DNA of 64,000 nt. Origin: Natronosalvus amylolyticus. Lineage in GTDB: Archaea; Halobacteriota; Halobacteria; Halobacteriales; Natrialbaceae. The stretch covers positions 682,001 through 746,000 of the forward strand of contig NZ_CP101156.1 of the NCBI RefSeq assembly GCF_024298845.1. The letters are read 5' to 3'. Below the pieces are notes generated by a model. That model saw only the letters and a list, made by a program, of their open reading frames with translations, was not told the DNA's origin and made no database searches. The translations under genes were made by a program, and so were the position numbers. The number at the start of each line of letters is the position of its first letter. Position 1 is the stretch's first letter. Shown here in pieces: positions 25,745-48,494 of the stretch.

Positions 25745-25763
25745 ACGGAAGGCTCGAGAGCCA

Positions 25764-25772
25764 CCTATAATG
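25764..25772 (-). promoter_or_regulatory. TATA-like element of the acetyltransferase gene
   Basis: On the minus strand CATTATAGG lies about 24 bases before the ATG at 25744. Confidence 0.4.
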
Positions 25773-25847
25773 GTTTTAATGAAGCGTGCTACCAGACCGC
25801 GTGAGCGTATCGGGGCCTTCTTTTGGGTCCGTTCCGAGAGTCGACCA

Positions 25848-27354: not shown

Positions 27355-29433
27355 TCAGTCGTCAGCCGATGCTTCGGAGCCGACGGGTTCGACCTCGGCA
27401 GCGGCCGCTTTGTACTCCGGAATCTTCGCCAGCGGGTCCAACACGTCGTTCGTGAGCGTGTTCGCTCGAGCGTCAGAGAAGTGTGGCGTCGTCCAGACCA
27501 CGCCCTCTTTGATGTCTTCGGTGACGTGTGCCTCGAGGACGATTTCACCGCGCCGGGAGCGAAGCGTGACGTAATCCTCGTCCTCGATGCCACGTTTTTC
27601 CGCGTCTGCTGGATGAATGTCGACGAAGTTATCGGGCGTTTTCCGTCTGAGTGTCGGCGAGCGGGTACTCATCGTGCCCGTGTTGTAGTGTTCCTCGAGT
27701 CGGGCCGTCGTCAACACGAGCGGGAACTCGTCGTCAGGTACTTCTTTTGGGTCCTGGTGACGAACGCCGCGAATCACGCCCAGTCCGTCCTCGGTGTCGA
27801 ACGTCTCCTCGTAGAGGTACTGGTCGCCTTCGTCGCCTTCCTCGTAGCACGGCCACTGGATTCCCTCGAAGCCGATGCTCTCGTAGGTCATCCCGTGATA
27901 GATCGGGCAGACCTCCCGAAGCTCTTCGAAGACGGCTTCCGGGCCATCGAAGTCGAAGCCGTCGCCGAACAATCTGGTCCCGACTTCACAGAGAATATCC
28001 AGATCGTGACGGGTGTTTCCGGGGACATCCGTCACTTTGCGCATACGCTGGACGCGTCGGTCCGTGTTCGTCACCGTCCCGCCGCGTTCGGCCCACGACG
28101 TTGCCGGGAGCACCACGTCTGCGAACTCGGCCGTTTCGGTCATGAAGATGTCCTGTACGACGAGGAATTCGAGGTCCTTCATCCGGTTTTCGACCTCGAG
28201 GGCGTCCGGTTCGCTCATTACCGGGTTCTCACCCATGACGTAGAGTCCGTGAATAGCGTCGCCGATGGCGTTCGAGACTTCGACGTTCGTCAGGCCCGGT
28301 TCGGGCGGGATGTCGAAGCCCCACACGTCCTCGACTGATTCGCGGGCTTCGTCGTCGTCGACTTCCAGGTAGCCGGGCAAGACGTTCGGCATCGCCCCGA
28401 CGTCACAGGTTCCCTGCACGTTGTTCTGCCCGCGCAGCGGATTGACGCCCGTTCCCGGTCGGCCGAGGTTCCCCGTGAGCAGCGCGAGGTTGACCTCGTT
28501 CTGAACGTTGTCCACACCACAGGCGTGCTGGCTCATGCCCATTCCGGTGAAAATAGCCGCGTTGTCAGCTTCGGCGTAGATCCGCGCAGCCTCCTGAATA
28601 TCCTTCAGCGGGACGCCACACCGTTCGGCTGCTTCCTCAACGTCGAAGCCCTCGAGCGTCGCCTCGAGATGGTCGAAGCCCCTCGTCCGTTCCTGGATAA
28701 ACGCCTCGTCGTACAGTTCTTCGTCGATGATGGTCTTCAACACGACGTTGAGCAAGGGAATGTCGGTCCCTGGCTCGAGTTGGAGGTGGATGTCGGCGTC
28801 ACGCGTCGTCTTGTTCGCGTGTGGGTCGACCTGAATAAGGGTCGCGCCGTCTCTCGTCGCCTGCCGAAAGTAGTTGCTGTGGGCGATGACGTGCTGTTCG
28901 GCCGGATTTGCCCCCTGCACCCAGTAAACCTCGCCGTGGTCCTCGAGGTCGACCATGCTGTTGGTCATCGCTCCCGCACCCAGGCTCTGGCGGAGCGTGT
29001 AGACGGTCGAGGCGTGACACATTCGCGTGCAGTTGTCGACGTTGTTCGTCCCGTACCGTCGGGCGAGTTTCTGTAACAGGTAGTTCTCCTCGTTCATCAC
29101 CTTCGAGGAGGCGAAAAAGCCGGTCGCATCGGGACCGTACGTTTCGGCGAGTCGCTCGAGTTCGTCGACGATTACCGTCAACGCCTCGTCCCAGGTAGCG
29201 GTTCGGAACTCGCCGTCGTCGTCCCTGATCAGCGGCTCGGTGAGCCGATCTTCGTGGTTGACGACCTGCGGAGAGGCGCCGCCTTTGATGCACAGCGCGC
29301 CCTCGTTGACCGGAGCGTCGAACCACGGCTGAAGCGACACGTCGCCGTCTTCTTCACCCGGTTTGAGTTTGAGACCACAGCCGACCCCACAGTAGGGGCA
29401 GATGGTGTGCACGCCGTCGTCCTCGGTTGCCAT
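27355..29433 (-). CDS. fdhA: Formate dehydrogenase-type molybdopterin oxidoreductase, catalytic subunit
   Basis: A 692-residue molybdoenzyme. At the N-terminus is a [4Fe-4S] site CPYCGVGCGL ... CIKGG (about 11-52). The likely molybdenum ligand is the Cys in NCTRMCHAST (about 130-140), replacing the Sec found in some formate dehydrogenases. C-terminal molydopterin-binding residues include TGTMSTRSPTL. It resembles the single-cluster formate dehydrogenases of FdhF/FdhA type, but no β or γ electron-transfer subunit gene is beside it. The start is the ATG at 29433; the extra 51 residues upstream in frame are not conserved. mobA follows it. Substrates other than formate cannot be excluded. Confidence 0.87.
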   Translation of the reverse strand: MATEDDGVHTICPYCGVGCGLKLKPGEEDGDVSLQPWFDAPVNEGALCIKGGASPQVVNHEDRLTEPLIRDDDGEFRTATWDEALTVIVDELERLAETYGPDATGFFASSKVMNEENYLLQKLARRYGTNNVDNCTRMCHASTVYTLRQSLGAGAMTNSMVDLEDHGEVYWVQGANPAEQHVIAHSNYFRQATRDGATLIQVDPHANKTTRDADIHLQLEPGTDIPLLNVVLKTIIDEELYDEAFIQERTRGFDHLEATLEGFDVEEAAERCGVPLKDIQEAARIYAEADNAAIFTGMGMSQHACGVDNVQNEVNLALLTGNLGRPGTGVNPLRGQNNVQGTCDVGAMPNVLPGYLEVDDDEARESVEDVWGFDIPPEPGLTNVEVSNAIGDAIHGLYVMGENPVMSEPDALEVENRMKDLEFLVVQDIFMTETAEFADVVLPATSWAERGGTVTNTDRRVQRMRKVTDVPGNTRHDLDILCEVGTRLFGDGFDFDGPEAVFEELREVCPIYHGMTYESIGFEGIQWPCYEEGDEGDQYLYEETFDTEDGLGVIRGVRHQDPKEVPDDEFPLVLTTARLEEHYNTGTMSTRSPTLRRKTPDNFVDIHPADAEKRGIEDEDYVTLRSRRGEIVLEAHVTEDIKEGVVWTTPHFSDARANTLTNDVLDPLAKIPEYKAAAAEVEPVGSEASADD

Positions 29434-29598
29434 ATGGATACTTGCTACCAAGAACCATTTGAGTCTTTGGCCGAAACTGGCAGCTAGCCAATAGTCTACT
29501 GCCATCGCTTCCCCGTGATTACCGATTCTGGATGGCGAGTACTGGATTGCCACCGAACTGAGCCACGTTTTTGCCCCTCGCCCCATTCAACCCATCCA

Positions 29599-31463: not shown

Positions 31464-32480
31464 ATGAGATACTTTGTCACGGGTTCGACCGGGTTAATTG
31501 GCTCACACGTCGTAACCAAACTCCTCGAACATGGTCACGAGGTTGTTGCGCTGACCCGCTCGAGGGCAAATGCGGATCACCTCCCGGAAGGGGCCACAGT
31601 GGTGGAAGGAGACATCACCGAGAAAGAAAGTATGCGGAATTCGATGAAGGGTGTGGACGGAGTGTTTCATATCGCCGCGTGGTTTTATGTCGGGCCCGGG
31701 CCTGGCAATGTCGAAAAGGCCGAACAGATCAACGTAACGGGAACCCGAAATGTGCTCGAATTGATGGACGAACTGGCCATCCAAAAGGGAGTTTACACCA
31801 GTACGATAGGTGTGTATCCCCTCCGAGAGTTAGAATATATCGATGAAACGATTGCGCCGAGGTGCCCGGAATCGGCCGTGTATTACCGGACGAAATGGGA
31901 GGCTCATTACGAGGTCGCTAAACCCATGATCGACGACGGGCTTTCGCTCGTCGTCGTGCAACCGGGCATCGTCTACGGTCCGGGAGACAAGGTGTACGGG
32001 TCGATTCGGGGCCTGTTTCGGGGCTATCTCCAAGGTGAGATTCCGATGATACCGCGCGTCCACTACGCACCCTGGGACCACGTCGGAGATATCGCAGACG
32101 GGCACGTACGCGCAATGGAGCAGGGTACCCCCGGAGAAACGTACATCATTTCAGGACCATCGAGAGAGATTGTCGACGTACTCCGGTGTGCCGAAAACAT
32201 AACCGGAATTCCGGTCCCCCGAATCGTCTCACCGAAGGTGATTGGAGGGGTCGCCAAACTAATGGGTGCAGTAGAACGATTCGTTACGCCTCCCGAGGGC
32301 TTAGAAGCTGAAACCCTCAGGTTTCTCGCCGGCCCGCAATGGCCAGTCGATAACAGCAAAGCAACCGAAGAACTTGGCATCGTACACAGACCGCTCGAGA
32401 ATGGACTGCGTGACTACCTGGAGTGGGAGATGGATCAGCTTGGAATCCAGGGAGAGGGGCTAGCCGTAGCGCAGCGTTAA
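31464..32480 (+). CDS. NAD-dependent epimerase/dehydratase (dihydroflavonol reductase-like SDR)
   Basis: A 338-residue extended SDR. It opens with the NAD(P)-binding motif VTGSTGLIGSHV (5-16), with VVEGDITEKE following, and the active-site pair is in VYYRTKWEAHYEV (YxxxK, about 137-150). The QPGIVYGPGDKV segment is typical of dihydroflavonol 4-reductase-like and NDP-sugar epimerase-like members. Its length of 338 and C-terminal helices fit the family. Likely substrates are a NDP-sugar or a hydroxy-ketone; none can be assigned. It is monocistronic as far as can be seen. Unlike the copy at 9441, its catalytic residues are intact. Confidence 0.85.
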   Translation: MRYFVTGSTGLIGSHVVTKLLEHGHEVVALTRSRANADHLPEGATVVEGDITEKESMRNSMKGVDGVFHIAAWFYVGPGPGNVEKAEQINVTGTRNVLELMDELAIQKGVYTSTIGVYPLRELEYIDETIAPRCPESAVYYRTKWEAHYEVAKPMIDDGLSLVVVQPGIVYGPGDKVYGSIRGLFRGYLQGEIPMIPRVHYAPWDHVGDIADGHVRAMEQGTPGETYIISGPSREIVDVLRCAENITGIPVPRIVSPKVIGGVAKLMGAVERFVTPPEGLEAETLRFLAGPQWPVDNSKATEELGIVHRPLENGLRDYLEWEMDQLGIQGEGLAVAQR

Positions 32481-32515: not shown

Positions 32516-33310
32516 TCACTCGAGAACGTCGACCAGCGGGTCCTGTTCGATCATACTCGTGAGGACGACTTTTTCGATTCGGTCGTCACCACCGTCATCG
32601 AGCACGAGTCGGCCAATCTCGCGAGCGACCTCGAGGTCGGCTTCGTCGTCGACCATGTTGATAACGGGGATGGGAGTCGCCGATGGAGGAATCCCCTTCA
32701 TCCCACCGTCGCTGTGAGTCAACACGGTCGCGATGTCCGCTGGCTCGAGGACGTCGCCCACCGAACGACCAGTGAGCGCGGCGACCCGTTCCGGGCGGTG
32801 AACGACGTCGGCCTCGAGCGAACGGCCAACCGCGTGACAGCTCGCAATCGCGAGGACGGTATCCGCCGACCGCGGGAGTTGTGGTTCGCGGTCGTTCGGC
32901 GCTTTCAACAGCCGCGTTCTGGCTCCATCGGCTTTCACTAGGACCTGATCGATACCGTCGAGAGCCGCGATACGGTCCACGGTTTCCGGATCGTAGCCAC
33001 GATATCTGTCGGTCCCATCGCGTTCAGGAACGACGCCGAGCGGCCAGAATTCTTCCGAACCGCTGTCCTCCCGCTGAATCACCTGCTCGAGCGTCCTAAC
33101 GGGATCCGAAACGACGTCGACCTTCGCTACCTGCTCGTCGAAAATTGGAATCCGAACGGTTGCCGTCAGGACGCACCGCTCGAGGCGACCGGCCAGTTCG
33201 TACAGAGTAGATTTCTTTCCCCCAGCGCCGACGACACAGACGACGCCTGTGCCGGCCTCGAGTGTGTGTACGAGACCGTTCGACCGAGAAGTGTCCGACG
33301 AGTCTGCCAT
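32516..33310 (-). CDS. yqeC: YqeC-like protein (selenium-dependent molybdenum hydroxylase accessory family)
   Basis: A 264-residue protein with VVCVVGAGGKKSTLYELAG (P-loop-like, about 20-38), a TATVRIPI segment, DQVLVKADGARTRLLKAP (about 122-139), LPRSADTVLAIASCHAVG and VVHRPERVAALTG, which together are the pattern of YqeC proteins. YqeC is a predicted GTP/ATP-binding accessory factor for selenium-dependent molybdenum hydroxylases in bacteria. The start is the ATG at 33310; the longer frame (to 33397) gives a non-conserved extension. It is convergent with the epimerase. The molybdenum genes (mobA, fdhA-like) lie 6 kb away, and I saw no selenium-insertion genes in the window. Confidence 0.8.
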   Translation of the reverse strand: MADSSDTSRSNGLVHTLEAGTGVVCVVGAGGKKSTLYELAGRLERCVLTATVRIPIFDEQVAKVDVVSDPVRTLEQVIQREDSGSEEFWPLGVVPERDGTDRYRGYDPETVDRIAALDGIDQVLVKADGARTRLLKAPNDREPQLPRSADTVLAIASCHAVGRSLEADVVHRPERVAALTGRSVGDVLEPADIATVLTHSDGGMKGIPPSATPIPVINMVDDEADLEVAREIGRLVLDDGGDDRIEKVVLTSMIEQDPLVDVLE

Positions 33311-33436
33311 AGCAGGGTCTTCTGGCTCTGTCCCTAAAAATACGCGCAACGGAGTGGCATACGATTTACCGTCATCTCTTATCCACGATGCCGCCATGAA
33401 ATCCCGATCACCAATACAAAGATACAGGAAACCGTA

Positions 33437-34459
33437 TCAGCCCTGCCAGGTCAACACCGTAGCGGCCCAGGTGTAGCCCGTTCCCGCAGCGAGGAAACAC
33501 ACCAGGTCACCTGCCTCGAGCAACCCGTCCTCGAGTGCGTCCCCGAGTGCGAGAATCTGGTCGGCGCTCTGGACGTGGCCGTAGGTGTCGAGATAGACAC
33601 CGTCGGTCTCGTGATCGAGTCCGAGTTCGTCGAACACTACCTCGTGGAACGAGCGTTTCATGTGGGTAACCGCGACGAAATCGAGGTCGGCCCGTTCGTA
33701 GCCGGAGCGCTCGAGGGCAGTATCGGCCACGGTCAGATAGTTCGGCAAAGAAACCGGTGCGAGGCGTTCTTTCATCCCGTCCGGGTCGGGAACGTCGAGA
33801 CGGTGGCGGTCAGCCGCGACGGTCTCGGAGGATGGTGGCTCGAGTGAACCGCCCGCTGGCATGACGACGTCGTGTGCGAACGAGCCATCCGTGAGGGCTG
33901 CGCTTTCGTGAACGATGGCTCGAGAACGGCTTCCGGGGTCTGCCTCGAGAACCATCGCACTGGCTCCAGAGCCGAAGTTGAACATGAACGACGACCGCTC
34001 GTTTTCGTAGTCGATCAGGTCCTCTTCACGACTTGCAGCGACCAGCAACGCCGTGTCGACGTGGTCGACCTGGAGTTGCGCACGGGCCTGTCGAATCGCA
34101 ATCGGCGCGCTGGCACAGAGTGTGTGACTTTCCGTGGCGAACGCGCTCTCGGCCCCTAATTGCTCCGTAATGTTTGCGGCAGCCGACCAGACGACGTGAT
34201 CTTTGTACTCGCTGCCGTGATAGAGGACCATGTCGATATCCGTCGGTGAGCGATCGGCCATCTCGAGGGCGTCTTGGGCAGCGGCGACACACATATCCGT
34301 AACGTGATCTTCAGCTGGCGGACAGACGTGTTTCCGACGAACGCCCATCTTATCGACGACCACTGATTCAGGAATACCGCTTTCGGCGGCGATCTCACTC
34401 CCCGATAGCGTTTTGTCGGGGAGGTACCGACCGAAACCGGTGAGGCCAACGGTCGTCAT
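33437..34459 (-). CDS. KAS III-like (FabH-type) condensing enzyme
   Basis: A 340-residue thiolase-fold protein with the KAS III order of motifs. Cys115 lies in SHTLCASAPIA, the position of the nucleophile. His266 lies in VTHMKRSFH. At the position of the catalytic Asn the sequence is DTYGHVQSAD with His295 instead of Asn, so ordinary decarboxylative condensation is not assured. Its ATG at 34459 overlaps the upstream acyl-CoA ligase stop codon by four bases, making it the last gene of the Liv-ligase operon. A role in condensing or transferring an acyl-CoA made by that ligase is my inference. 3-oxoacyl-ACP synthase III annotation should not be taken literally, since haloarchaeal lipids do not need it. 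Confidence 0.8.
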   Translation of the reverse strand: MTTVGLTGFGRYLPDKTLSGSEIAAESGIPESVVVDKMGVRRKHVCPPAEDHVTDMCVAAAQDALEMADRSPTDIDMVLYHGSEYKDHVVWSAAANITEQLGAESAFATESHTLCASAPIAIRQARAQLQVDHVDTALLVAASREEDLIDYENERSSFMFNFGSGASAMVLEADPGSRSRAIVHESAALTDGSFAHDVVMPAGGSLEPPSSETVAADRHRLDVPDPDGMKERLAPVSLPNYLTVADTALERSGYERADLDFVAVTHMKRSFHEVVFDELGLDHETDGVYLDTYGHVQSADQILALGDALEDGLLEAGDLVCFLAAGTGYTWAATVLTWQG

Positions 34460-36093
34460 CGCCCCCCACCCTCGCTGTTATCGGTACCCTCTCCCGCTCG
34501 TCCCACCGCCTCTTCAGCCGACGGACCGTACTGGTCCTCGAGTGTGCCCCGGTCGAGTTTACCCGCTCCGCTGCGTGGCACGGCCTCGACCACCTGAATC
34601 TCGTGTGGCACCTGGAAATCCGCGAGTGTGTCACGGGCAAACGCCTCGAGCGTCGATGAATTCTCGAGTGAACCGGTCACGATAGCTTTCGGAACGGTTC
34701 CCCAACGGTCGTGTGGGATTCCGACGACGCCAACCGAATCGACCGCTGGATGGTCCTCGAGGGCGGCTTCAATCTCCTCGGGATAGACGTTCTCTCCGCC
34801 GCTGACGAACATATTGTCGGTTCGCCCGGTAATCGTGTAATCTCCGGCGTCGTCCCGTCTGGCCAGGTCACCCGTCGACACCCACTCGCCCGTAAACGTG
34901 CCGTCCTCGGTCTCGAGGTACCCTGCCGCAGTCATCGGGCCACGAACCTCGAGTTCGCCGATTTCGTTTGCCCCGAGCACCGTGACATCGTCGTCGACGA
35001 CCCGTGCCTCGCAGTCGGGGAACGGTCGCCCGACACTCGAGATGGACTTCTCCAGGCCGACCGTTCGCTCGGGGTCGAGGTACAGGTTGTTCGGCCCGCC
35101 TTCGGTGAGGCCGTATCCCTGTGAAAATCGCTGACCACGGTCGCGATAGGCGTCCATGACCGCCTCACTGGTCGGACCACCGCCGCTCATGAACCAGTCG
35201 ACGCTCGAGAAGTCGGTGGCCCCGAAGTCGGGGTGGTCGGCCATCGCTCGAAAGATGGCGGCGACGCCAAAAGCGTGGGTTGCCCCGTACCGCTCGATAG
35301 TGTCGAGTGCGAAACCTGGCTCGAACTCGCGGTGAAGGACCACCTGCCCGCCGACGTACAGCGTCGGGACCGTCAGGAGGTTCCAGCCACCGGTGTGAAA
35401 GAGGGGCAAGAACACGGGCGAAACATCGGTTTTGCCCAACCCCCAGGCAGCCAGTTCGGTGATGCAGTTCCACTCGAGTTGCCGGTACGGACAGACGACG
35501 ACTTTCGGCACGCCGGTCGTGCCGCCGGTGTGCAGATACAACACCGGTCGGTCCGGATCCCGTGGAACGGTGTCGACGGTACGGGCGTCCAGGTCGACGT
35601 CATCGGCGACACTCTCAGCGGAAGCGTCCGCGACCGACAGGTCGAAGAAACGCTCGAGGGTCCGATAGGTCGTCTTCTCGTCGGCAGTTTCGCCCCCCGT
35701 CGATTCCTCGGTACCGGTTTCGAGCAGTGCCTCGAACTGTGGTTCATACAGTGTGAGGGCCGGGTCGATTCGTTCGTGGAGGGTGCACACCGATTCGGCT
35801 GACAGCCGATACGAGATCGGTGCGACGATAGCGCCACGGTCGACGGCGGCGAAAAACAGGATCAGGAGTTCGACCCGGTTTCGAGCGAGTACCGCGATCA
35901 CATCGCCCTCGCCGACCGCATTGGCTGCGAGCCGACGATTACAGGCTCGAGTCGCTGCGGCGAGGTCGCCGTAGGTGTACTGGTCGTCACTCGCCCGGTC
36001 GCCAGCCGCCTCGGGGCCGGGGGCCATCCCCCGGTCGACGACGGCGACCCGCGAGCCATACTGTGCTGATCGGTCGTGAATTGAAAGTGTCAT
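34456..36093 (-). CDS. Acyl-CoA ligase (ANL superfamily)
   Basis: A 545-residue adenylate-forming enzyme that activates a carboxylic acid with ATP and CoA. The AMP-binding motif is LYLHTGGTTGVPKVVV (about 180-195). A later GYGLTEGGPNNLYLD (about 305-320) and STGDLARRDDAGDYTITGRTDNMFVSGGENVYPEE give the A7-A8 region, with the C-terminal PKAIV and SGAGKLDRG (catalytic Lys). I choose the ATG at 36093; the alternative TTG lies four codons upstream. It follows livM by 36 bases and overlaps the KAS III-like gene by four bases. Its substrate could be an aromatic, branched or medium-chain acid imported by the adjacent transporter. Confidence 0.88.
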   Translation of the reverse strand: MTLSIHDRSAQYGSRVAVVDRGMAPGPEAAGDRASDDQYTYGDLAAATRACNRRLAANAVGEGDVIAVLARNRVELLILFFAAVDRGAIVAPISYRLSAESVCTLHERIDPALTLYEPQFEALLETGTEESTGGETADEKTTYRTLERFFDLSVADASAESVADDVDLDARTVDTVPRDPDRPVLYLHTGGTTGVPKVVVCPYRQLEWNCITELAAWGLGKTDVSPVFLPLFHTGGWNLLTVPTLYVGGQVVLHREFEPGFALDTIERYGATHAFGVAAIFRAMADHPDFGATDFSSVDWFMSGGGPTSEAVMDAYRDRGQRFSQGYGLTEGGPNNLYLDPERTVGLEKSISSVGRPFPDCEARVVDDDVTVLGANEIGELEVRGPMTAAGYLETEDGTFTGEWVSTGDLARRDDAGDYTITGRTDNMFVSGGENVYPEEIEAALEDHPAVDSVGVVGIPHDRWGTVPKAIVTGSLENSSTLEAFARDTLADFQVPHEIQVVEAVPRSGAGKLDRGTLEDQYGPSAEEAVGRAGEGTDNSEGGGR

Positions 36094-36129
36094 GAACTCA
36101 GTCAAATCGCAGCCCTGCCCCGATCCGAG

Positions 36130-37485
36130 CTAGCGCCGATACCGCTCGAGGTGGGCAGGGAGACATTTCGCAACGGTGCCGCCGAGTCGATCACGGACCG
36201 ACCCGAGCAAGCCGTTGGGGACGAACAGCACGAACAACACGAACACGATACCGAGATACAACGGCGCGCGTCCGTCGATGAGCGTATTGATCAACTCGAG
36301 GAACGTCAACCCTGCAACATCCACACTCAACAGGCCCTCCGGGAGGGTTTCGCGGAGGTACGGGGCGAGACCGCCCTGTTGTGAAGAGAGGATGTCCTCG
36401 AGCCACTCGAAGAGGAACGAGCCGAATAGCGGCCCAGCCAGCGTTCCGATACCACCGATGATGGTCACGATCAGCGCGTCGGCAGTCACGAGGAAGTAGA
36501 ACGTGCTGTCCGGTGACGCGCTGCCGGTGTAGGCGGCGAACAACGCACCGGCGATGGCAGCGAAGAAGGCGCTCATGGCGAACGCGCCCATCTTGTACCA
36601 GAACACGTTGTAGCCGACCGCTTCTGCGCGCTCTTCGTTCTCGCGGATGGCGATCATCACGCGGCCGAACGGCGAGTGGATGATTCGCTGCATCGCGAAA
36701 TAACAGATGACGACGATGACCCCGATAGCGTAGTAGGACGTGAGCGTTGCCGAGATGTCGATGCCGGTACCCAGGACGTTGTTGAAGCTGTCACCCGACA
36801 GTCGACCGAGTCCAACCGAGAGCGAGTCGACGAACGGCACGCCGATTTCGGGAGTTGGGCCCGCGTGGTTTGGCCCCTCGAGTGGGTTCGAACCGACGTA
36901 TCCCCAGTTTCGGATCAGTTCGTAAAGCACCTGTGCGAACCCGAGGGTCAACATGGCGAAGTAGACGCCCGTCAGCCGGAACGAAACGGCGCCGATGGCG
37001 AGGGCGGCGATAATCGCGATAACGCCGCCAAGTACCATCGTCAGCATGAACGGTGTACCGCCCGGCACTCCCGGAATTTGGCCATTAGCGGCCAGTACGA
37101 TGGTGTAAGCACCGATGCCGTAGAAGGCCGCATGGCCGAACGACAGGTAGCCGGTGTAGCCGCTGATGAAGTCGAAGCTCATCGCAAACAAGCCCAGGAA
37201 CAACATCCCGATGAGGAACGTCGTCGCCGGCAAGAAGGCGTTGAAGAACGCGCCGGGATCGACGGTCCCAACACCGATATCGAGTGCCGGAAGTCCAGTC
37301 AAGACGCTGTAGAGAGGTGGATAGACGATGAAGAAGCCGATGACGAGCACGTGAGCGAGATGATCGTGCACGTAGCCTCGAGCCCAGTGTGTCGACTCGG
37401 CTTCGTCGGCGTCAGTGGCGTCGCTCGCGGCGGGCTTCTCGTCCGTTGCCTGCGCCAGATCGCTATCAGGGGAGCTAATGGCCAC
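36130..37485 (-). CDS. livM: Branched-chain-type ABC transporter permease (LivM-like)
   Basis: A 451-residue inner permease with about ten hydrophobic helices. It includes the LivM family motif YTGYLSFGHAAFYGIGAYT (about 115-133), SFRLTGVYFAMLTLGFAQ and RIIHSPFGRVMIAIRENEERAEAVGYN (EAA-like loop near 275-295), and the final GGIGTLAGPLFGS. A ~45-residue acidic N-terminal extension precedes the first helix. It overlaps livH by 11 bases. With LivH it forms the membrane channel of a high-affinity importer; specificity comes from the binding protein encoded upstream. Confidence 0.9.
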   Translation of the reverse strand: MAISSPDSDLAQATDEKPAASDATDADEAESTHWARGYVHDHLAHVLVIGFFIVYPPLYSVLTGLPALDIGVGTVDPGAFFNAFLPATTFLIGMLFLGLFAMSFDFISGYTGYLSFGHAAFYGIGAYTIVLAANGQIPGVPGGTPFMLTMVLGGVIAIIAALAIGAVSFRLTGVYFAMLTLGFAQVLYELIRNWGYVGSNPLEGPNHAGPTPEIGVPFVDSLSVGLGRLSGDSFNNVLGTGIDISATLTSYYAIGVIVVICYFAMQRIIHSPFGRVMIAIRENEERAEAVGYNVFWYKMGAFAMSAFFAAIAGALFAAYTGSASPDSTFYFLVTADALIVTIIGGIGTLAGPLFGSFLFEWLEDILSSQQGGLAPYLRETLPEGLLSVDVAGLTFLELINTLIDGRAPLYLGIVFVLFVLFVPNGLLGSVRDRLGGTVAKCLPAHLERYRR

Positions 37486-38539
37486 CCACCTCCTCGACGC
37501 CGTAAAGGCCCTGTGGGCGCACGATCAGTGCGATCACGAGCAACAGGAAGATGGTGACCTCCGGGAGTCCCGAGAAGTCGATGATGCCTCGAGCGAACAC
37601 CCAGGTGGTAAACGAGTCGGCCATTCCGACGATGATCGCCGCCACGAGTGTGCCTTTGAACGAGCCGAGGCCACCGATCACGACGACGACGAACGCGTAC
37701 AACAAGACGTCGAGGTTGAGCATCACACTGGGTCCCTCCGTGGGATCCCACATGAGGAAGACGCCCCCGACTGCAGCTAATCCGATTCCGAGGCCGAAGA
37801 CGACGGTGAACGCCTTCCGAACGTCGATCCCGAGGGCTTCGACCATCTCCGGATCCTCGCTGCCCGCTCGGATGTACAGGCCGTAGAGCGTTTTCGTGAG
37901 GAACGCCCAGACGATAGCCGCCAGTATCGCACCGGCGACGATGGCGAACAGATAGAAGCCCCTGATTCGGGCACCGAAGAGGTTCAGCAGAATCTCCGAT
38001 GGCGTCCCGAGGACCGTCGGAATGGTCGCCTGCGCAGCAGCCCACGTGGGCTCCGGCTGGATACCACGGGCAGATGCGATTATCCGCGCGAGTTCCTCGA
38101 GGATCAAGCCGACACCGAAAGTCAGCAGAATCTGGTACATCGGCGTGCGGTCGTAGATTGGTCGAACCAGACCGATCTCGAGGGCAGCGCCGACGGCAGT
38201 CAATAGGGCGAAGATGACGGCGACGACCACGACGAAAAACGCGATTCGTGTAAACGTTCCCGACCCGGACGAGAGGCCGACTACCATCAGGATGCCACCG
38301 AGATACGCGCCGACCATCGCGAACGCGCCGTGGGCGAAGTTGAGGATGCCCATCAGCCCGAAGACGAGGGTCAATCCGATGGCGATAATGAAGTAGATGG
38401 CCGCCTTGCCGAGTCCTTCGATAAAGATACGAGCCAACGTATCGGGTCGGAAGAAACTGCGAACCCCGTCAGTAAACAGGGGTGTGAGTGTATCGCTTGC
38501 GAACAGTACCTCGAGCGCTGGGGTAAGTGACCCAATCAT
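37475..38539 (-). CDS. livH: Branched-chain-type ABC transporter permease (LivH-like)
   Basis: A 354-residue permease with about eight helices. The LivH features GLTLVFGLMGILNFAHGAF (about 55-75), DPEMVEALGIDVRKAFTVVFGLG (EAA-like region, about 231-255) and a FVVVVIGGLGSFKGTLVAA segment near 285-305 are present. A 40-residue amphipathic N-terminus precedes helix 1, longer than in bacterial LivH. Its ATG at 38539 overlaps the livF stop by four bases (ATGA). It pairs with LivM in the membrane. Confidence 0.92.
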   Translation of the reverse strand: MIGSLTPALEVLFASDTLTPLFTDGVRSFFRPDTLARIFIEGLGKAAIYFIIAIGLTLVFGLMGILNFAHGAFAMVGAYLGGILMVVGLSSGSGTFTRIAFFVVVVAVIFALLTAVGAALEIGLVRPIYDRTPMYQILLTFGVGLILEELARIIASARGIQPEPTWAAAQATIPTVLGTPSEILLNLFGARIRGFYLFAIVAGAILAAIVWAFLTKTLYGLYIRAGSEDPEMVEALGIDVRKAFTVVFGLGIGLAAVGGVFLMWDPTEGPSVMLNLDVLLYAFVVVVIGGLGSFKGTLVAAIIVGMADSFTTWVFARGIIDFSGLPEVTIFLLLVIALIVRPQGLYGVEEVGGH

Positions 38540-39234
38540 GCAGAGAGATACCTCCGAATGCGTTCGTCATCAGCGGTAACGCCTTCCGTCGAGCCAGACT
38601 CGACGACCGTGCCGTGATCGAGCAGATAGAACCGGTCCGCGAGGTCCATCGCGAGCGGGAAGTTCTGTTCGACCAGGACCATCGTCGTCTCGGTCGAGGC
38701 TTCACGGAGTACCTCTACGACCTGTTCGACGATCAGTGGAGCCAGCCCCTCACTCGGTTCGTCGACGAGCAATAGATCGTTGTCACCGACCATACCGCGA
38801 GCGATGGCGAGCATCTGCTGTTGGCCGCCGCTCAAATTTCGCGCTTCTTTCTCCCGAAATCGCTCGAGGTCCGGAAACAGTTCGAACATCTCGTCTCGAA
38901 GGCGTTCGAAGTCATCCTCCGGCGGCACCGCGACGCGGATGTTCTCCTCGACGGTGAGATAGCCGAACATTCGTCGTTCTTCGGGAACCCAGCCGATTCC
39001 GTTCGTAGCCACTTCGTGTGTCGGCCGTCCAGTCACGTCGACACCATCGTATCGAACGATCCCCTCTCGAGGCGGCGTCAACTGCATGATCGTTCGAAGG
39101 GTCGTCGTCTTCCCGACGCCATTGCGGCCGATGAGCGCGACGACTTCGTTCTCCTCGACGTGAAGGTCGACACCCTGTAAGATGTGGCTCTCGCCGTAGT
39201 AGGTGTGAACGCCCTCGAGTTCGAGCAACGCCAT
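38536..39234 (-). CDS. livF: Branched-chain-type ABC transporter ATP-binding protein (LivF-like)
   Basis: A 232-residue ABC ATPase with Walker A GRNGVGKTT (about 35-43), signature LSGGQQQMLAIARGM (about 136-150), Walker B LLLVDEPSEGLAPL and the switch His region beyond. The ATG at 39234 overlaps the livG stop codon by one base (TGATG); the TTG one codon before it is not needed. It energises the permease pair with LivG. The GVDLHVEENEVVALIG stretch is typical of LivF. Confidence 0.92.
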   Translation of the reverse strand: MALLELEGVHTYYGESHILQGVDLHVEENEVVALIGRNGVGKTTTLRTIMQLTPPREGIVRYDGVDVTGRPTHEVATNGIGWVPEERRMFGYLTVEENIRVAVPPEDDFERLRDEMFELFPDLERFREKEARNLSGGQQQMLAIARGMVGDNDLLLVDEPSEGLAPLIVEQVVEVLREASTETTMVLVEQNFPLAMDLADRFYLLDHGTVVESGSTEGVTADDERIRRYLSA

Positions 39235-40094
39235 CAAGCACTCACCCCGGTTGCGGCGTCGTCACCGTCGGTGGTCTCTTCGGTACCATCGTAGCCGCCG
39301 AGATACGCACGCTGGACGGCTTCGCTATTTCTGACGGTTTCGGGGTCGCCATCGGCGATCAACTCGCCGCGGTTCAACACGGCGATCCGGTCACTGATCC
39401 CCATCACCACATCCATGTTGTGTTCGATCAACATCACGGCGTGATCGGCCGCGACGTCTTCGATGATGTCGGTGACCTGTCCGACGTCCTCGCTCGAGAC
39501 GCCGGCCGTCGGTTCGTCGAGCAAAAGCACGTCCGGATTGCCTGCAAGCGCAATACCGATCTCGAGGTTGCGTTTTTCGCCGTGACTGAGGTTCTGTGCG
39601 GTTCGGTCGGCGTACTCGGTCAGGCCGATTCGGTCGAGAATCGCTTCCGCCTCTGTGTAGTGATCATCGAACGCGTTGACGTTGCGCCAGAACTGCCAGG
39701 AGTCGCTCCCCCGGTGTGCCTGGACCGCTACGCGAACGTTCTCGAGGACGGACACCGTCGGGAAAATGTTGGTGATCTGGTACGAACGGTGGAGTCCCAT
39801 CAGTGCTGTCTCGTGTGGTTGTGCGTCCGTTATATCGATTCGACCGTCCTGTCTCCCATCCCTGACGGTGTCGCCATCCGCGTCCCCAACACCACCATTC
39901 CCGGTCGGCGCAAACTCGATCGAACCCGCCGTCGGCTCGAGTACCCCGGTCAACAGGTTGAAAAACGTCGTCTTCCCCGCACCGTTCGGCCCGATGACCG
40001 AACAGAGTTCGCCCCGCTCGAGGCTGAAGTCGACGCTATCGACGGCGGTCACGCCGCCAAACCGTTTCGTCAAATTCGACGTCCAGAGTACCAT
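39234..40094 (-). CDS. livG: Branched-chain-type ABC transporter ATP-binding protein (LivG-like)
   Basis: A 286-residue ABC ATPase. Walker A GPNGAGKTTFF (about 36-46), signature LSHGEKRNLEIGIAL (about 165-180), Walker B VLLLDEPTAGVSSEDV and the D-loop/switch sequence after it are present. An insert of about 20 residues between Walker A and the signature (acidic, GGVGDADGD) and a short acidic C-terminus are haloarchaeal. The gene starts four bases after the livK-like stop codon. It forms the heterodimeric ATPase with LivF. Confidence 0.92.
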   Translation of the reverse strand: MVLWTSNLTKRFGGVTAVDSVDFSLERGELCSVIGPNGAGKTTFFNLLTGVLEPTAGSIEFAPTGNGGVGDADGDTVRDGRQDGRIDITDAQPHETALMGLHRSYQITNIFPTVSVLENVRVAVQAHRGSDSWQFWRNVNAFDDHYTEAEAILDRIGLTEYADRTAQNLSHGEKRNLEIGIALAGNPDVLLLDEPTAGVSSEDVGQVTDIIEDVAADHAVMLIEHNMDVVMGISDRIAVLNRGELIADGDPETVRNSEAVQRAYLGGYDGTEETTDGDDAATGVSA

Positions 40095-40098
40095 GAGA

Positions 40099-41526
40099 TC
40101 AGTTGAGCGAGCAGCTAGCCTCGTCTGCTGGCACCATGACCTCCTCGGGTTCGAACGTCTCGATGGGTTCGCCGGGCATCACCGACGCGTCCCAGTACTC
40201 GGCAACATCGTCGTCGGTCGGGACAGGCCAGGCGACGGTCATGGCCGACGCAGCCTGGTTGTTGTGTTCCTGGAAGGTGTAGGCGTTCTCGCCTTTCGGC
40301 GTATCGATGACCGTCATCCCCCGCATCGCCTGGGCGATGTCGCCGCCGTCGACCGAACCGGTCTCGTCGATGGCCTGGACGAGCGCCGACCCGCCGACGA
40401 ACGTCCCGGCACTGAACAGGTCCGGCATCAGCCCGTACGTCTCAGTGTGCATGTCGATGAAGGCGTCGTTGATCGAGTTGTCGTACTGGTTCCAGTGATA
40501 GCGGGTCGTGAACGGACCCAGTCCGGCATCCTGGATATCTTCGGCCGTAAAGCCTTCGCCGAGTGTGGCCTCGACGGTCTGGCCGGTGACCTGTGTCGTC
40601 ACCAGTTCGGCAAAGCCACCGAACGCCTGGATCTCGTCGTAGGCCATCGCCGTCGGGAGGAACTCCGGCAACGTGATGAAAGTGAACCCACCGACCACGC
40701 CGTCTGCACCCTGATCGATAGCCTCGTCGAACAGCCCTTCGAACTCGCTGTAACCGGGTTCGACGAACCGTGGGTCCAGGACTTCCACACCCTGTCCTTC
40801 CAGGACTTCGCGGTAATTGTTCGCGACACCCTCACCGAACGCCCCTTCTGCAGCGAAGATGGCGACAGTCGAGACGTCCCCCTGCTCGGCGACGTATCGA
40901 CCACCCGCTCGGGCGTCCATCGCGGTGTGCTCACTAGCACGGAACAGCAACTCGTGACAGTGGTCGGATGACACCGTGATGTCGGCGTCTGCCGCTGGCC
41001 CTGCGATGTAGGGGATCCCGGCATCGTCGAGAATGTTCGCCGAAATGCGGCGCGCCGAATCGGAACTCGAGGCCCCGAACAGGACGTCGACATCCTCGTC
41101 GACAACCAGATCCTCGGCCACCTGCTGGGCCGTATCCGGGGTGAAAACGGTATCCTGGACGATGAACTCGAAGGTCGGCCCGTCGTCCGGGTCGAGCGTA
41201 TACGTCCCGGTTGTCATCTCCTCGATCGGGTCGAGGTCGTACTTGTAGGCGATTCCCGAGTAAAAGCCCATCAGGCTGATCTGTCCGTAGTACTCGAGGT
41301 CGCCTGAAACGGGTTGCATCGCCCCGATTCTGATCGTCTCATCAGCAACGTCCTCGCTCCCGTCGCCCCCGTTTCCGGTGCCATCATCGCCGTTCCCATC
41401 GTCAGCACCGTTCCCACTGTCGTCGCCGTTCTCGTCTGCGATACACCCTGCCAGTCCAGCCGTCCCGAGCGCTGCCAGTGTTCCCGTCCGTCGGAGCACC
41501 GTACGCCGGTTGGTATCTCGTGGCAT
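40099..41526 (-). CDS. livK: ABC transporter substrate-binding lipoprotein (LivK-like)
   Basis: A 475-residue extracellular binding protein. It begins with a twin-arginine-like lipoprotein signal: RRTVLRRTGTLAALGTAGLAGC (residues 7-28) with the lipobox Cys, followed by a ~30-residue Asp/Gly-rich spacer and the type I periplasmic-binding fold (IRIGAMQPVSGDLEYYGQ). Two Rossmann-like lobes follow. Binding proteins of this branch can take branched amino acids, amides, urea or aromatic acids; the ligand cannot be told here. It is the first gene of the operon that ends with the KAS III-like gene. A TATA-like TTTAGG at about 41552-41558 is near the start. Confidence 0.88.
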   Translation of the reverse strand: MPRDTNRRTVLRRTGTLAALGTAGLAGCIADENGDDSGNGADDGNGDDGTGNGGDGSEDVADETIRIGAMQPVSGDLEYYGQISLMGFYSGIAYKYDLDPIEEMTTGTYTLDPDDGPTFEFIVQDTVFTPDTAQQVAEDLVVDEDVDVLFGASSSDSARRISANILDDAGIPYIAGPAADADITVSSDHCHELLFRASEHTAMDARAGGRYVAEQGDVSTVAIFAAEGAFGEGVANNYREVLEGQGVEVLDPRFVEPGYSEFEGLFDEAIDQGADGVVGGFTFITLPEFLPTAMAYDEIQAFGGFAELVTTQVTGQTVEATLGEGFTAEDIQDAGLGPFTTRYHWNQYDNSINDAFIDMHTETYGLMPDLFSAGTFVGGSALVQAIDETGSVDGGDIAQAMRGMTVIDTPKGENAYTFQEHNNQAASAMTVAWPVPTDDDVAEYWDASVMPGEPIETFEPEEVMVPADEASCSLN

Positions 41527-44332: not shown

Positions 44333-46030
44333 CTAGCCCTGTTTGTACTCGACGCCTTTCTCACCGCGCGGGTGTGTCCACTCGGTATCGGCGACAATAG
44401 CACACGTCCCACATTCGACACAGGGTTGTGTGTCGAGACTCACCAGTTTCTCCTCGCTCCCGTTGGTCTTGACCGTCTCAGCCCGGTAACAGCCGCCACC
44501 GAAGTCTTCAGCACTGACCGGACAGGCGTAGACGGCGGCCCCGCTGGCCTCGAACGATTCGTCCTGCAACAGGATGTGTGGATTGCCGACGTCCGTGTTG
44601 TACGTCAGATCACCGATGCGTTCCTCGAGCGATGGTGGCTCGATTTCGTTCTCCCAGTGGACGGTCCGGCCGTGTTTTTCGCCGATGAGCGACGGTAACG
44701 TCGTGTACGCCATCGACGTATCCGGAAGCATTCCCACGAGGAACGGGGAGTTGTACGCTTTGGGCAACAACCGTTTCGCAATCGGATTGCCGACGGCGAT
44801 CGAGCCGACGGGCGAGTTCAACACGCCTTCGACTGCTTTGGTGACCAGATCGTGTTCGCCGACGGTGCTCGTGAGTTCGTAGCGGCGTGGCCGCAGTTTG
44901 CCCATAGTGCCCGACTGCTCGAGCATCGTGGTGTACCGACGACCGGCGGCCTCGGGGTCAGCGTTGCCCCGAGTGAGTGCGTAAGCGTCAGCGGCCAGCG
45001 CACCGGCGGTGACAGCGTGATTCATTCCCTTGATGATCGGTCCCTGAGCTTGCATCTGGCCGCCAGCGTCGCCGACGAGGACGAGGTTGTCGGCGTAGGG
45101 TTCGCGGTGAGCCACCTTCTTCGAGTCGGGAACCAGTTTGGCCGAGTACTCGAGTTCGTTGTACTCGCCGTCGAACCACTGTGCCAACAGGGGGTGGGTC
45201 AACAACGCATCGAGCAGTTCGTGCGGTTCGGCCTCTTCGGCGACGAGGCTATCGAGGTGGAAAACGGTCCCAATCGAGAGGGTGTCTTCGTTCGTATAGA
45301 GGAAGCCACCGCCCCGGACATCCTCGAACAGATCGCCCGAGAACAGGTGCGCGACACCTTCGCCCTCCTCGATGGAAAACCGATCGTTGATGACGTCGGC
45401 GTCCATGTCGACGACGGCTTTGACGCCCTGGAACCACTCGTCCGGTTCGTCCCAGTCCATCAGATCCGCGGCGCGCGCTAACTCGGAGTTGACGCCATCG
45501 GCGGCGACGATGTAGTCGGCCCTGATCGGGTCGAGTTCGTCACAGGTCACGCCGACGATCTCTCCGTTCTCCCGGAGCAAGCCGTTGACGCGTACGCCGG
45601 TCAGAACCCCGCCGCCGGTCTCACTCGTTTTCTCGTGGACACGTTGTTCGAGCCAACTGTCCATCGTCCGGCGCAAGACCGCGTCACACCAGTCCGTGTC
45701 GTGTTCGTGCAGGTCGGTCAGGTCGTAGGTCGTGACCTGCCGACCGTCGATATTGTGGATGTGATAGTCGGTGACCGGCCGTTCTGCCGCTTCCTCCCGG
45801 AAGTCGGGGAACAGGTCGTCGATCGTGTACGGTGCCGAATCCTCCGCGTAAATCAATCCGCCCGAAACGTTCTTCGACCCGGCCTCGACGCCGCGCTCGA
45901 GGACGAGCGTCTCGATACCGTGTTCGGCCAGGCGAGCCGCGGCGGCAGCCCCACCTGGGCCACAGCCGACGACGACCGCTTCGTAGTGTTCGTAGTCCTC
46001 GCTGCCACCATCGGTTCGTGTTTCACTCAT
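44333..46030 (-). CDS. fixC: ETF-quinone oxidoreductase, FixC with fused FixX-type ferredoxin
   Basis: A 565-residue flavoprotein. The FAD motif VVVGCGPGGAAAAARLAEHGIETLVLERG is near residues 18-47, a flavin segment NLVLVGDAGGQMQAQGP lies near 320-336, and the C-terminal part has CPVSAED ... CVECGTC, four Cys for one [4Fe-4S] cluster (about 496-535), which is FixX-like and fused to the FixC body. It accepts electrons from ETF and reduces menaquinone at the membrane. The start ATG at 46030 overlaps etfA by eight bases. The alternative start at 46045 would only add MEVNP. It is downstream of etfB and etfA. Confidence 0.92.
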   Translation of the reverse strand: MSETRTDGGSEDYEHYEAVVVGCGPGGAAAAARLAEHGIETLVLERGVEAGSKNVSGGLIYAEDSAPYTIDDLFPDFREEAAERPVTDYHIHNIDGRQVTTYDLTDLHEHDTDWCDAVLRRTMDSWLEQRVHEKTSETGGGVLTGVRVNGLLRENGEIVGVTCDELDPIRADYIVAADGVNSELARAADLMDWDEPDEWFQGVKAVVDMDADVINDRFSIEEGEGVAHLFSGDLFEDVRGGGFLYTNEDTLSIGTVFHLDSLVAEEAEPHELLDALLTHPLLAQWFDGEYNELEYSAKLVPDSKKVAHREPYADNLVLVGDAGGQMQAQGPIIKGMNHAVTAGALAADAYALTRGNADPEAAGRRYTTMLEQSGTMGKLRPRRYELTSTVGEHDLVTKAVEGVLNSPVGSIAVGNPIAKRLLPKAYNSPFLVGMLPDTSMAYTTLPSLIGEKHGRTVHWENEIEPPSLEERIGDLTYNTDVGNPHILLQDESFEASGAAVYACPVSAEDFGGGCYRAETVKTNGSEEKLVSLDTQPCVECGTCAIVADTEWTHPRGEKGVEYKQG

Positions 46031-47432
46031 CGGGTTCACCTCCATCAGCTACGGCCTCAACCGTCAGTTCGCCGGATTTCACCGCGTCGGTGAGCATCGG
46101 GAGCACGTCGAAGAGATCACCCTCGATGAAGTAATCGCTGAAATCACGAATCGTCGCATCGGGGTCTGTGTTGATCGAGACGATCGTCTCCGACTCGTCG
46201 ACGCCGACTTTGTGCTGGACCGCTCCGGAGACCCCCGCTGCGATGTACAGCGGCGGTTCTACCTCCTGGCCGGTTTCTCCGATCTGGCGTTCTTCTTTCG
46301 AGTACTGCTCGACGTGCCCGTCGAACTGGTACGACGAGGTAACGATCCCGCGGGTGATACCAAGGGCAGCGTCGTCGAAGGCATCGACCAGTTCGAGTCC
46401 AAGTTCCATGCCAAGCGTCGGATCATCACCGATGCCACGACCCAGACAGACGACGACCTCGTGTCCAGTCAGGTCGACGCCCGCTTCGAGCGTATCGTGG
46501 GATTCGATGTCGACGCTAAACCACTCGTCCTCGAGTTCCATGTCGTGTTCGACGACGAGTCCCTCCCGGTCGTAATCGGGTTCGGGAACGTCGAACGCGC
46601 CGGGGATAACCGAGGCACCCTGTGGGTGAAAATCCCGGTCGGGGTTGTCCAGACAGAGGATCGTCGAGTACTCGAACCCCGAGAAGTCCGGTCGCTTCAT
46701 GTGCAAGGTGCGTTCGAACGTCTTTTTCACCCCTGGCTCGCCTGTTTTGACTGGGTTCGAAACTTCCTCCGGCTGAATAAACAGATCAGAGCAGTCAGAT
46801 GCGAGGCCGGAATCGAGTTCGGCCTGCACGAGTGCCGAGAGATCACGGCCGTTGTTCGTCGCCGGGAACAACGTGTATCGTGGTTCGTCGTACGACCGCC
46901 AGTCAGTGCTTTCGGTCGTCCCCTGCCCGCGAGCCATGTGGGCCGAAATTTCGGTGTAGGGCTTGTGCAAGAAGCGCTCGAGTCGGTCGTCATCGTGATA
47001 GACGGCGACGTCCGCTCCGTAGGCGATACACTCCTCAGCGAGGTCTGCACAGCCGTCACCTATCAGGAAGGCCACGACATCCTCTTCGTCGCCGAAATCC
47101 TCGGCATACCCGTCCATCAGCTCACGGGCCTTCCCGAGCATCTCCTTCGAGACGTCGAGCAGTTCGCCGTGTTGTGTCTCACAGAACACCCACATGTCGG
47201 CGTAGTCTCCACCGACCAGGGCTCGAACGTGCTTTTTGTCTCGAGTTGGCTCGTCATCGCTACTGTCAGCGTCGAGTGTATCCAATCGCTCCTCGAGAGC
47301 TTCCAGGGCGGTCTTTCGCTCCGCTCCCGAGCGCTCTGTCTCGAGCGCTTCACGTACTTCCTCGACGTCGTCGATTCCGTCCAGTTCCTCTCGCAGTTCG
47401 TCAACCGTGTAGTCGTCCGGGTCGAGTGTCAT
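46023..47432 (-). CDS. etfA: Electron transfer flavoprotein, alpha subunit, with N-terminal extension
   Basis: A 469-residue protein, about 100-150 residues longer than the typical alpha subunit. The first ~70 residues form an acidic, helical extension with DELREEL and EALEERLD repeats. Then follow an ETF N-domain and the C-terminal FAD-binding domain with CLGRGIGD, GITRGIVTSS (about 357-366) and YIAAGVSGAVQHKVGVDES (about 398-416). ETF carries electrons from dehydrogenases to FixC. It starts two bases after the etfB stop codon. Confidence 0.93.
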   Translation of the reverse strand: MTLDPDDYTVDELREELDGIDDVEEVREALETERSGAERKTALEALEERLDTLDADSSDDEPTRDKKHVRALVGGDYADMWVFCETQHGELLDVSKEMLGKARELMDGYAEDFGDEEDVVAFLIGDGCADLAEECIAYGADVAVYHDDDRLERFLHKPYTEISAHMARGQGTTESTDWRSYDEPRYTLFPATNNGRDLSALVQAELDSGLASDCSDLFIQPEEVSNPVKTGEPGVKKTFERTLHMKRPDFSGFEYSTILCLDNPDRDFHPQGASVIPGAFDVPEPDYDREGLVVEHDMELEDEWFSVDIESHDTLEAGVDLTGHEVVVCLGRGIGDDPTLGMELGLELVDAFDDAALGITRGIVTSSYQFDGHVEQYSKEERQIGETGQEVEPPLYIAAGVSGAVQHKVGVDESETIVSINTDPDATIRDFSDYFIEGDLFDVLPMLTDAVKSGELTVEAVADGGEPDE

Positions 47433-47434
47433 GC

Positions 47435-48298
47435 TCAGTCACCTCCTGCATACGGCTGTAGTTCCTCGAGTACCTGTTCCATCCCGCCACTGTCGCCCGG
47501 ATCGATCATCGTCGCCTCCCGTTCGGAGGGCGCTTTCGGAATGGGGTCAACCGAGGAAACGATCGTCGGTGAGCCATCGAGACCGATGTATTCGGAGTCC
47601 AGACGCAGGTCCTCGTGGTCCCAGGTCGTCAGATGGTCGTCGAAGTCCTCGACGCGTTCTTCCGTGGCCGCGCGCAACCGCTTGTGCTCGAGTCGGTGGG
47701 CCGCCTTCCGGTAGGTCGGTTCGAACTCGGGGTCGGTGACAACGAAACACGGAAGTGGGGCTTCGACCGTCTCGATCTCGTCAACGTCACCCTCGACCAG
47801 TCTTTTGGCCCGGAGGACGCGTTCGTCGGGGTCGATATCCAGTGCGATGACGTGCGTGACGATCGGCCACTCCAGACACCAGGCGGTCTGGGGCCCTGTG
47901 TGACCGGTCTCGCCGTCGGCTGTTTTGAACCCCGCAAACACCAGATCGACGTCTGTGACTTCCTCCTGGTACTTTTCGATTGCTGCTGAGAGCGTGATCG
48001 CAGTGGCCCAGGTGTCCGAGGCCGCGAGTTCTCGGTCCGAGAGCAGATAGCTGTCATCCGAATAAATCTCGCCCATCGCCTCCTCGAGCACGCTCGAATA
48101 ACTCGGCGGCCCCATACTCATCCCACTCACGTGTCCACCGTGACGAACTCGCGTCTGGAGGGCCGCGCGCAACGCGAAGTGGTCGTTCGGGTTCATTACC
48201 GTCGGTGTCTTCCCGCGCTCGAGGTGCCCGTCCTCGTCGAATGATACCGCACCCTCAGAGAAGTCGGGGACCCCTTTTGTCAAGACGATCGATCTCAC
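47435..48298 (-). CDS. etfB: Electron transfer flavoprotein, beta subunit
   Basis: A 287-residue ETF beta subunit. The N-terminal segment RSIVLTKGVPDFSEGAVSFDEDGHLERG is typical, then NPNDHFALRAALQ and the AMP-binding region ending in DLVFAGFKTADGETGHTGPQTAWCLEWPIVTHVI. I start at the GTG at 48298, because GAGGTG just upstream is a good SD-like sequence; a GTG three codons further up is the alternative. It is the first gene of etfB-etfA-fixC-hypothetical. Confidence 0.9.
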   Translation of the reverse strand: MRSIVLTKGVPDFSEGAVSFDEDGHLERGKTPTVMNPNDHFALRAALQTRVRHGGHVSGMSMGPPSYSSVLEEAMGEIYSDDSYLLSDRELAASDTWATAITLSAAIEKYQEEVTDVDLVFAGFKTADGETGHTGPQTAWCLEWPIVTHVIALDIDPDERVLRAKRLVEGDVDEIETVEAPLPCFVVTDPEFEPTYRKAAHRLEHKRLRAATEERVEDFDDHLTTWDHEDLRLDSEYIGLDGSPTIVSSVDPIPKAPSEREATMIDPGDSGGMEQVLEELQPYAGGD

Positions 48299-48494
48299 AA
48301 CTCCCACCTCGAGTGTGTTATGATTGTTCGTAGCATACTCATCTGGGCGTTTCGCAACATTAGTTATTAAGGATGTGGGGTAAAATCCGAGTGCGCAACG
48401 GTGGAGTTCACGCTGTGAGGATTGTCACAGATATCGATCAGTCCGTATCCAAGATAGTCCTGCTCCCTATGACTTTTCCTGAATCTGGCCGCGC

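Follow-up and report, generated by a model that had tools for sequence, protein, structure and literature searches.

The window analysed here, a stretch of 64,000 nucleotides from Natronosalvus amylolyticus, carries an operon in which the genes of a Liv-type importer are followed by those of an acyl-CoA ligase and of a KAS III-like protein. This cluster is real and well conserved, is built of known kinds of parts, and is probably misnamed. All seven open reading frames, at 33437-41526 on the minus strand, were confirmed with the families given for them, in the order livKGFHM, acyl-CoA ligase and KAS III-like gene, and an eighth gene of the same strand, yqeC, begins 39 nt downstream of the KAS stop:

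40099..41526, minus strand: livK-like substrate-binding protein (475 aa; PF13458, 166 bits)
39234..40094, minus strand: livG-like ABC ATPase (286 aa; PF00005, PF12399)
38536..39237, minus strand: livF-like ABC ATPase (233 aa; PF00005; alternative ATG start at 39234)
37475..38539, minus strand: livH-like permease (354 aa; PF02653)
36130..37485, minus strand: livM-like permease (451 aa; PF02653)
34456..36105, minus strand: acyl-CoA ligase of the ANL superfamily (549 aa; PF00501 and PF13193; alternative ATG start at 36093)
33437..34459, minus strand: KAS III-like protein, NF005308 (340 aa; PF08541, PF08545; changed active site)
32516..33397, minus strand: yqeC, selenium cofactor biosynthesis protein family (TIGR03172, 163.3 bits against a cut-off of 73)

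A binding protein, two permeases and two ATPases, assigned by their Pfam families, are thus encoded by five adjacent genes as in a Liv-type ABC importer, and the N-terminus of the livK product is Tat/lipobox-like when read from its sequence. The earlier note had described seven coupled genes on one strand, and this is borne out by overlaps or short gaps at every junction: livK and livG are separated by 4 nt, the livF start is overlapped by the livG stop (CTTGATGG), livF and livH overlap by 4 nt, livH and livM by 11 nt with GTG as the livM start, and the ligase and KAS genes by 4 nt (ATGA). The 36 bases that it counted between livM and the ligase are correct for the ATG start at 36093, and become 24 nt for the TTG start at 36105. 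As yqeC is present in just five of the 97 haloarchaeal KAS loci described below, it is probably a lineage-specific neighbour.

Among 391 Halobacteria genomes, 95 carry a protein over the cut-off of the NCBIfam family NF005308, the window's own genome included. We compared 97 KAS loci, mostly of about 19.5 kb, from 95 other genomes, two of which (L163 and L164) hold partial or fragmentary matches below the cut-off. All five liv genes are found upstream of KAS in 89 of these loci, with livM less than 450 nt upstream in 88, a recurrence that rules out chance adjacency of the operon genes; six loci have no liv gene upstream. Further partners are an HTH_10/HVO_2525_N regulator (83 of 97), a ligase anywhere in the locus (80), an alpha/beta-hydrolase (76), MaoC (57), an SDR related to 3-hydroxybutyrate dehydrogenase (25), DUF35 (13) and a close thiolase (12). 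The usual haloarchaeal order is MaoC, alpha/beta-hydrolase, ligase, HTH regulator, livKGFHM and KAS, sometimes with thiolase-DUF35 or the SDR; the best NCBIfam matches of the hydrolase are 3-oxoadipate enol-lactonases, far under their cut-offs. Similar arrangements occur in annotated plasmid records: pJOR178 of Salarchaeum carries MaoC, hydrolase, an AMP-binding protein, HTH, five Liv genes and a 3-oxoacyl-ACP synthase, and a Halomicrococcus plasmid record shows such an arrangement without ligase and hydrolase nearby.

The dependence between the KAS-like gene and the importer is one-sided: KAS accompanies the importer in 94 of 96 genomes, while the importer often occurs without KAS (43 of 137). 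These counts derive from a search for LivK at E ≤ 1e-60, which gave matches in 137 of the 391 genomes, with both genes in 94, KAS alone in 2, LivK alone in 43 and neither in 252; the 96 KAS-positive genomes include G327, which has a partial copy below the cut-off, and as the counting was done over related genomes we do not lean on a p-value. Loci were fetched for 20 of the 43 genomes with LivK only. In five of them regulator, liv genes, hydrolase and ligase are all retained and no KAS was found among them, two combine ligase, regulator, thiolase, DUF35 and liv genes, six consist of the Liv operon alone with no ligase or hydrolase detected nearby, and the other seven are mixed. Together with the 43 genomes that have LivK alone, the first five indicate that KAS is dispensable for part of the function. 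A close thiolase accompanies LivK and KAS in 17 of 94 genomes, versus 17 of the 43 with LivK only (Fisher p 0.01, for genomes that are related), as might be seen if KAS had replaced a close thiolase, but in five of the KAS-minus loci no close thiolase was seen in the vicinity. Co-occurrence counts for the hydrolase were left out, because its paralogs overlap in score.

Whether all seven genes recur together, a check proposed alongside the original description, thus has a divided answer: the KAS–Liv link recurs as given above, while a ligase at the window's position, between livM and KAS, was found in just three of the 97 loci besides the window. In a midpoint-rooted FastTree phylogeny the four ligases group as a single clade, whose sister is made up of the haloarchaeal ligases from the usual position, and two of the three other genomes also carry a ligase at the usual position. 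Such a local occurrence, together with the ligase tree, rules out that the window's ligase and KAS form a conserved haloarchaeal pair. The earlier note had held that finding the ligase and KAS genes apart from any Liv genes in relatives would refute its reading; the KAS gene is not so placed, and for the window's ligase this is partly the case. The protein itself has both its AMP-binding domain (PF00501) and its C-terminal domain (PF13193) over cut-off, as in the ANL superfamily, none of the 25 best of 103 matching NCBIfam families scores over its curated cut-off, and its solved relatives carry varied names. Its closest paralog within the genome (43% identical, 324 bits; the next reaches 128) is the ligase of a block about 0.48 Mb away from the Liv–KAS operon on the same contig. 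This second block (~C1:1.196-1.203 Mb; L181:4340-10767) is of the type usually found upstream, with MaoC, hydrolase, ligase, HTH regulator, thiolase, DUF35 and an aldo-keto reductase, and it is here rather than in the operon that the conserved-type ligase of the source genome resides. Judged from these sequence relationships, the window's ligase is a diverged, lineage-specific paralog and not the conserved one.

Bacterial relatives of the NF005308 protein, at 40-45% identity, come from Chloroflexi/Anaerolineae MAGs and one deltaproteobacterial MAG. In Chloroflexota, the phylum of one of these Chloroflexi relatives, 19 of 201 genomes hold a protein over the NF005308 cut-off, and 20 loci were compared, from these 19 genomes and one further genome. 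All 20 have a ligase at no more than 1.7 kb and on the same strand, 19 a hydrolase and 12 MaoC, and at least three kinds of liv gene occur in 13 (on the same strand in 11), where several contigs are so short that absences carry little weight. As such, the KAS-like gene, ligase and hydrolase cluster together in two domains. The haloarchaeal node of the KAS tree has a support of 0.095, too low to give the direction of an inter-domain transfer. An Anaerolineae-type cluster also contains a second KAS III-like gene (L025:15280-16266), which has Thr and Tyr at the positions of the His and Asn of FabH and falls just under the KAS III cut-off (243.5 versus 249 bits).

The KAS III-like protein of the window is a member of NF005308 (PRK06840) by score, at 415.6 bits against a cut-off of 315, and is the sole PF08541 match in its genome. 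It remains under the cut-offs of fabH models (110.3 versus 292.1 for TIGR00747; 127.8 versus 249 for PRK09352), and far under those of HMG-CoA synthase (HMGS; 64.4 versus 244 for PRK04262; 41 versus 353 for TIGR00748). Its AlphaFold2 model (pLDDT 91.2) has a complete KAS III fold, and a search with this model placed BioZ, FabH and PKS priming ketosynthases level, with a Z of about 38-39, so the fold leaves the reaction unnamed. A BioZ (pimelate) route was set aside, given that BioZ is among the tied best folds but FabH and others are equally so. In the open-access literature searched, we found no described function for NF005308 or PRK06840.

We therefore turn to the active site, compared by sequence alignment rather than by model coordinates, in 120 NF005308 members (95 haloarchaeal including the window's, 7 bacterial from the loci of the first relatives and 18 from Chloroflexota), with eight FabH-like proteins and four archaeal HMGS as controls; an NCBIfam check covers five of the FabH-like proteins, plus one at 243.5 against a cut-off of 249. 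Three matches, L137 (with a stop), L163 (partial) and L164 (a fragment), were excluded from the residue counts, and their loci were kept in the locus counts. In a tree with both sets of controls, the NF005308 members form one clade (FastTree support 0.87). They share with KAS III enzymes such as FabH and BioZ the PF08541/PF08545 domains and the Cys nucleophile, Cys115 being retained by 119 of the 120 members. At the position of the FabH His (265), however, all haloarchaeal members have Thr and the bacterial ones vary, with a His at the adjoining position 266 in 119 of 120 (an offset of one residue that rests on the same alignment), and the FabH Asn position is His295 in all 120. In the FabH-like controls these positions hold His at 265 in 7/8, Gln at 266 in 8/8 and Asn at 295 in 7/8, and in archaeal HMGS they are His, Gln and Asn in 4/4. 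The aligned Arg, which we take to be the ACP-side residue of FabH, is present in seven of the eight FabH-like controls and is Ser in all 120 members, while Lys86, Trp91, Lys268, Ser270 and Asp300 are invariant. The glutamate of archaeal HMGS is matched in the alignment by Glu84 (GSEY versus GSES), which is found in 95/95 haloarchaeal, 7/7 other and 12/18 Chloroflexota members; the catalytic roles of the aligned FabH and HMGS residues, including that of the HMGS glutamate, are presumed here.

Consequently, the Cys-His-Asn triad of KAS III is not found at the aligned positions, and with the FabH His and Asn positions changed in 120 members the protein is not a canonical KAS III. Of the Glu-Cys-His site of HMGS, Glu84 and Cys115 align and the His position does not. 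With a site that matches neither enzyme, condensation and acyl transfer are both candidate reactions; a Cys-His-His site could be compatible with condensation, as in KAS I/II. The family name '3-oxoacyl-ACP synthase' is probably misleading, since the ACP chemistry that it implies is supported neither by the changed residues nor by the gene context.

What the importer carries was approached through LivK, which is far from the NCBIfam model of branched-chain amino-acid (BCAA) binding proteins (53.9 bits against a cut-off of 477). In a profile search its best matches are 3n0x (5.1e-54) and 3nnd (3.5e-52), with the next at 1.3e-26; by fold, 4zpj and 3n0x (Z of about 42), the titles of which name no ligand, lie closest to its model. 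Neighbours at Z 40-41 are mostly binders of aromatic acids, some solved with 4-hydroxybenzoate or vanillate, and Leu/Ile/Val-type binders follow at Z 38-40. The predicted ligand thus leans to an aromatic or related acid, although the fold search is not decisive. That the substrate is not an obvious amino acid, as had been proposed, receives modest support from the ligand-titled folds nearest to LivK (Z of about 41), set against amino-acid binders close behind. The binding proteins of the aromatic-acid Liv importers of Rhodopseudomonas palustris are alike in fold; the fold alignments have 16-23% identity in their first ten rows.

So what could this operon do? An uptake followed by CoA activation, as first suggested, would be the natural reading of gene content, given the conserved link of KAS with the five liv genes and a ligase somewhere in most loci. 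We consider it an even call that the operon supplies the uptake function of a cassette for carboxylate catabolism, with the NF005308 enzyme forming, cleaving or transferring an acyl unit at the level of CoA thioesters. LivK and LivHMGF would import an organic acid, by our guess an aromatic or a short or branched acid rather than an ordinary amino acid, and the ANL ligase would convert it to its CoA thioester. The acyl chain may then be processed by the alpha/beta-hydrolase, the MaoC hydratase and sometimes the 3-hydroxybutyrate-dehydrogenase-related SDR or a thiolase with DUF35, the genes of which are in the same cluster in many relatives and mostly in the second block of the same contig in the source genome. 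Of these partners, MaoC, SDR and thiolase-DUF35 belong to a beta-oxidation-like sequence. CoA thioesters, and not ACP, are what the KAS-like enzyme most likely acts on. It may form an acyl-S-Cys115 intermediate, and His295, His266 and Lys86 would then assist in making, breaking or transferring a bond. Our first choice, a guess, is a thiolase-like cleavage or acyl transfer that would release a usable acyl-CoA. Import, CoA activation and processing of a carboxylate would join the conserved partners; counting against the catabolic reading are the absence of KAS from 43 of the 137 LivK genomes, and the limited presence of MaoC (57 of 97 loci), SDR (25) and thiolase (12). More tentatively, and with a probability that we place well below even, NF005308 may represent a distinct catalytic class of the thiolase superfamily (Cys-His-His with the invariant Lys86 and Trp91) that acts on CoA thioesters, and be the signature of an undescribed carboxylate-degradation pathway, with a module of Liv importer, ligase, alpha/beta-hydrolase, MaoC and KAS-like enzyme common to haloarchaea and Chloroflexota.

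The same parts could also be read as a biosynthetic cassette, in which the KAS III-like enzyme condenses the imported, activated acid to a beta-keto product that would serve as a lipid, a signal or a secondary metabolite, MaoC and SDR acting alongside. A KAS III fold that BioZ, FabH and PKS priming ketosynthases match equally well and the near-complete conservation of Cys115 agree with such a role, and the MaoC and SDR families may work in the reductive direction as well. We nevertheless regard it as unlikely: the gene keeps company with an importer and a CoA ligase, other residues stand at the positions of the FabH His and Asn, the ACP-side Arg has given way to Ser, and part of the clusters carry thiolase-DUF35 instead of reductases. 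An enzyme resembling HMGS, in which an acetyl-enzyme with Glu84 serving as the base attacks a ketone of the acid after its import and CoA activation, would account for the glutamate that it has in common with archaeal HMGS in all haloarchaeal and all seven other members. The HMGS His and Asn, present in 4/4 HMGS, are however changed here, no more than 12 of the 18 Chloroflexota members retain Glu84, and the HMGS models score far under cut-off (64.4 versus 244 bits), which makes this very improbable.

The operon could also encode an ordinary importer of branched-chain amino acids, with the metabolic genes as passengers. In favour of this, each of the five transporter genes belongs to the Liv class, and in six of the 20 KAS-minus loci neither a ligase nor a hydrolase was detected in the vicinity of the Liv operon. 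An acyl-CoA ligase, though, is not needed for amino acids, LivK is far from the BCAA model, and ligase, hydrolase and KAS recur as a group in bacteria, so that we consider this explanation quite unlikely. An olefin pathway of the OleABCD kind was also rejected, as the SDR at 31464-32480 scores 79.4 bits against the OleD cut-off of 580; the likeness is superficial, and consists in the co-occurrence of a KAS-like enzyme, a hydrolase, an ANL enzyme and SDRs.

A precedent for the catabolic reading is provided by the steroid side-chain aldolase Sal and by Shy, where a repurposed thiolase-fold enzyme is reported to act in catabolism with MaoC and DUF35 partners (PMC12329534, PMC11321319). Sal, as there described, is of the thiolase type and not KAS III-like, and DUF35 is near KAS in just 13 of the 97 loci. 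The earlier note had stated that haloarchaea lack a fatty-acid synthase role for KAS III. PMC11948995 likewise takes the view that long-chain fatty acids are not made de novo in haloarchaea: its results support that Natronomonas pharaonis is unable to do so, as is generally considered for archaea, and its main text gave no match for FabH. The open-access literature searched yielded no account of a Liv-ligase-KAS cluster. In general, haloarchaea are considered unable to make fatty acids de novo, and yet 95 of 391 Halobacteria genomes carry a protein that NCBIfam names for fatty-acid synthesis. The conserved cassette, which named strains carry, is a concrete and testable way into an acid-degradation pathway and perhaps into a reaction new to the thiolase superfamily.

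Several other genes of the window deserve mention. A few kb from yqeC, 27355-29586 encodes a molybdopterin oxidoreductase of the formate dehydrogenase alpha kind (767.8 bits, cut-off 666). On the other side of the operon, a FixC-like dehydrogenase and two electron-transfer-flavoprotein-like subunits stand in a row on the minus strand (44333-48307). The protein encoded at 24935-25966 is of the AAC(3) aminoglycoside acetyltransferase kind and under the family cut-off (194.8 versus 270 bits), and at 21157-24868 the genes for glycerol-3-phosphate dehydrogenase GlpA and glycerol kinase GlpK are arranged divergently.
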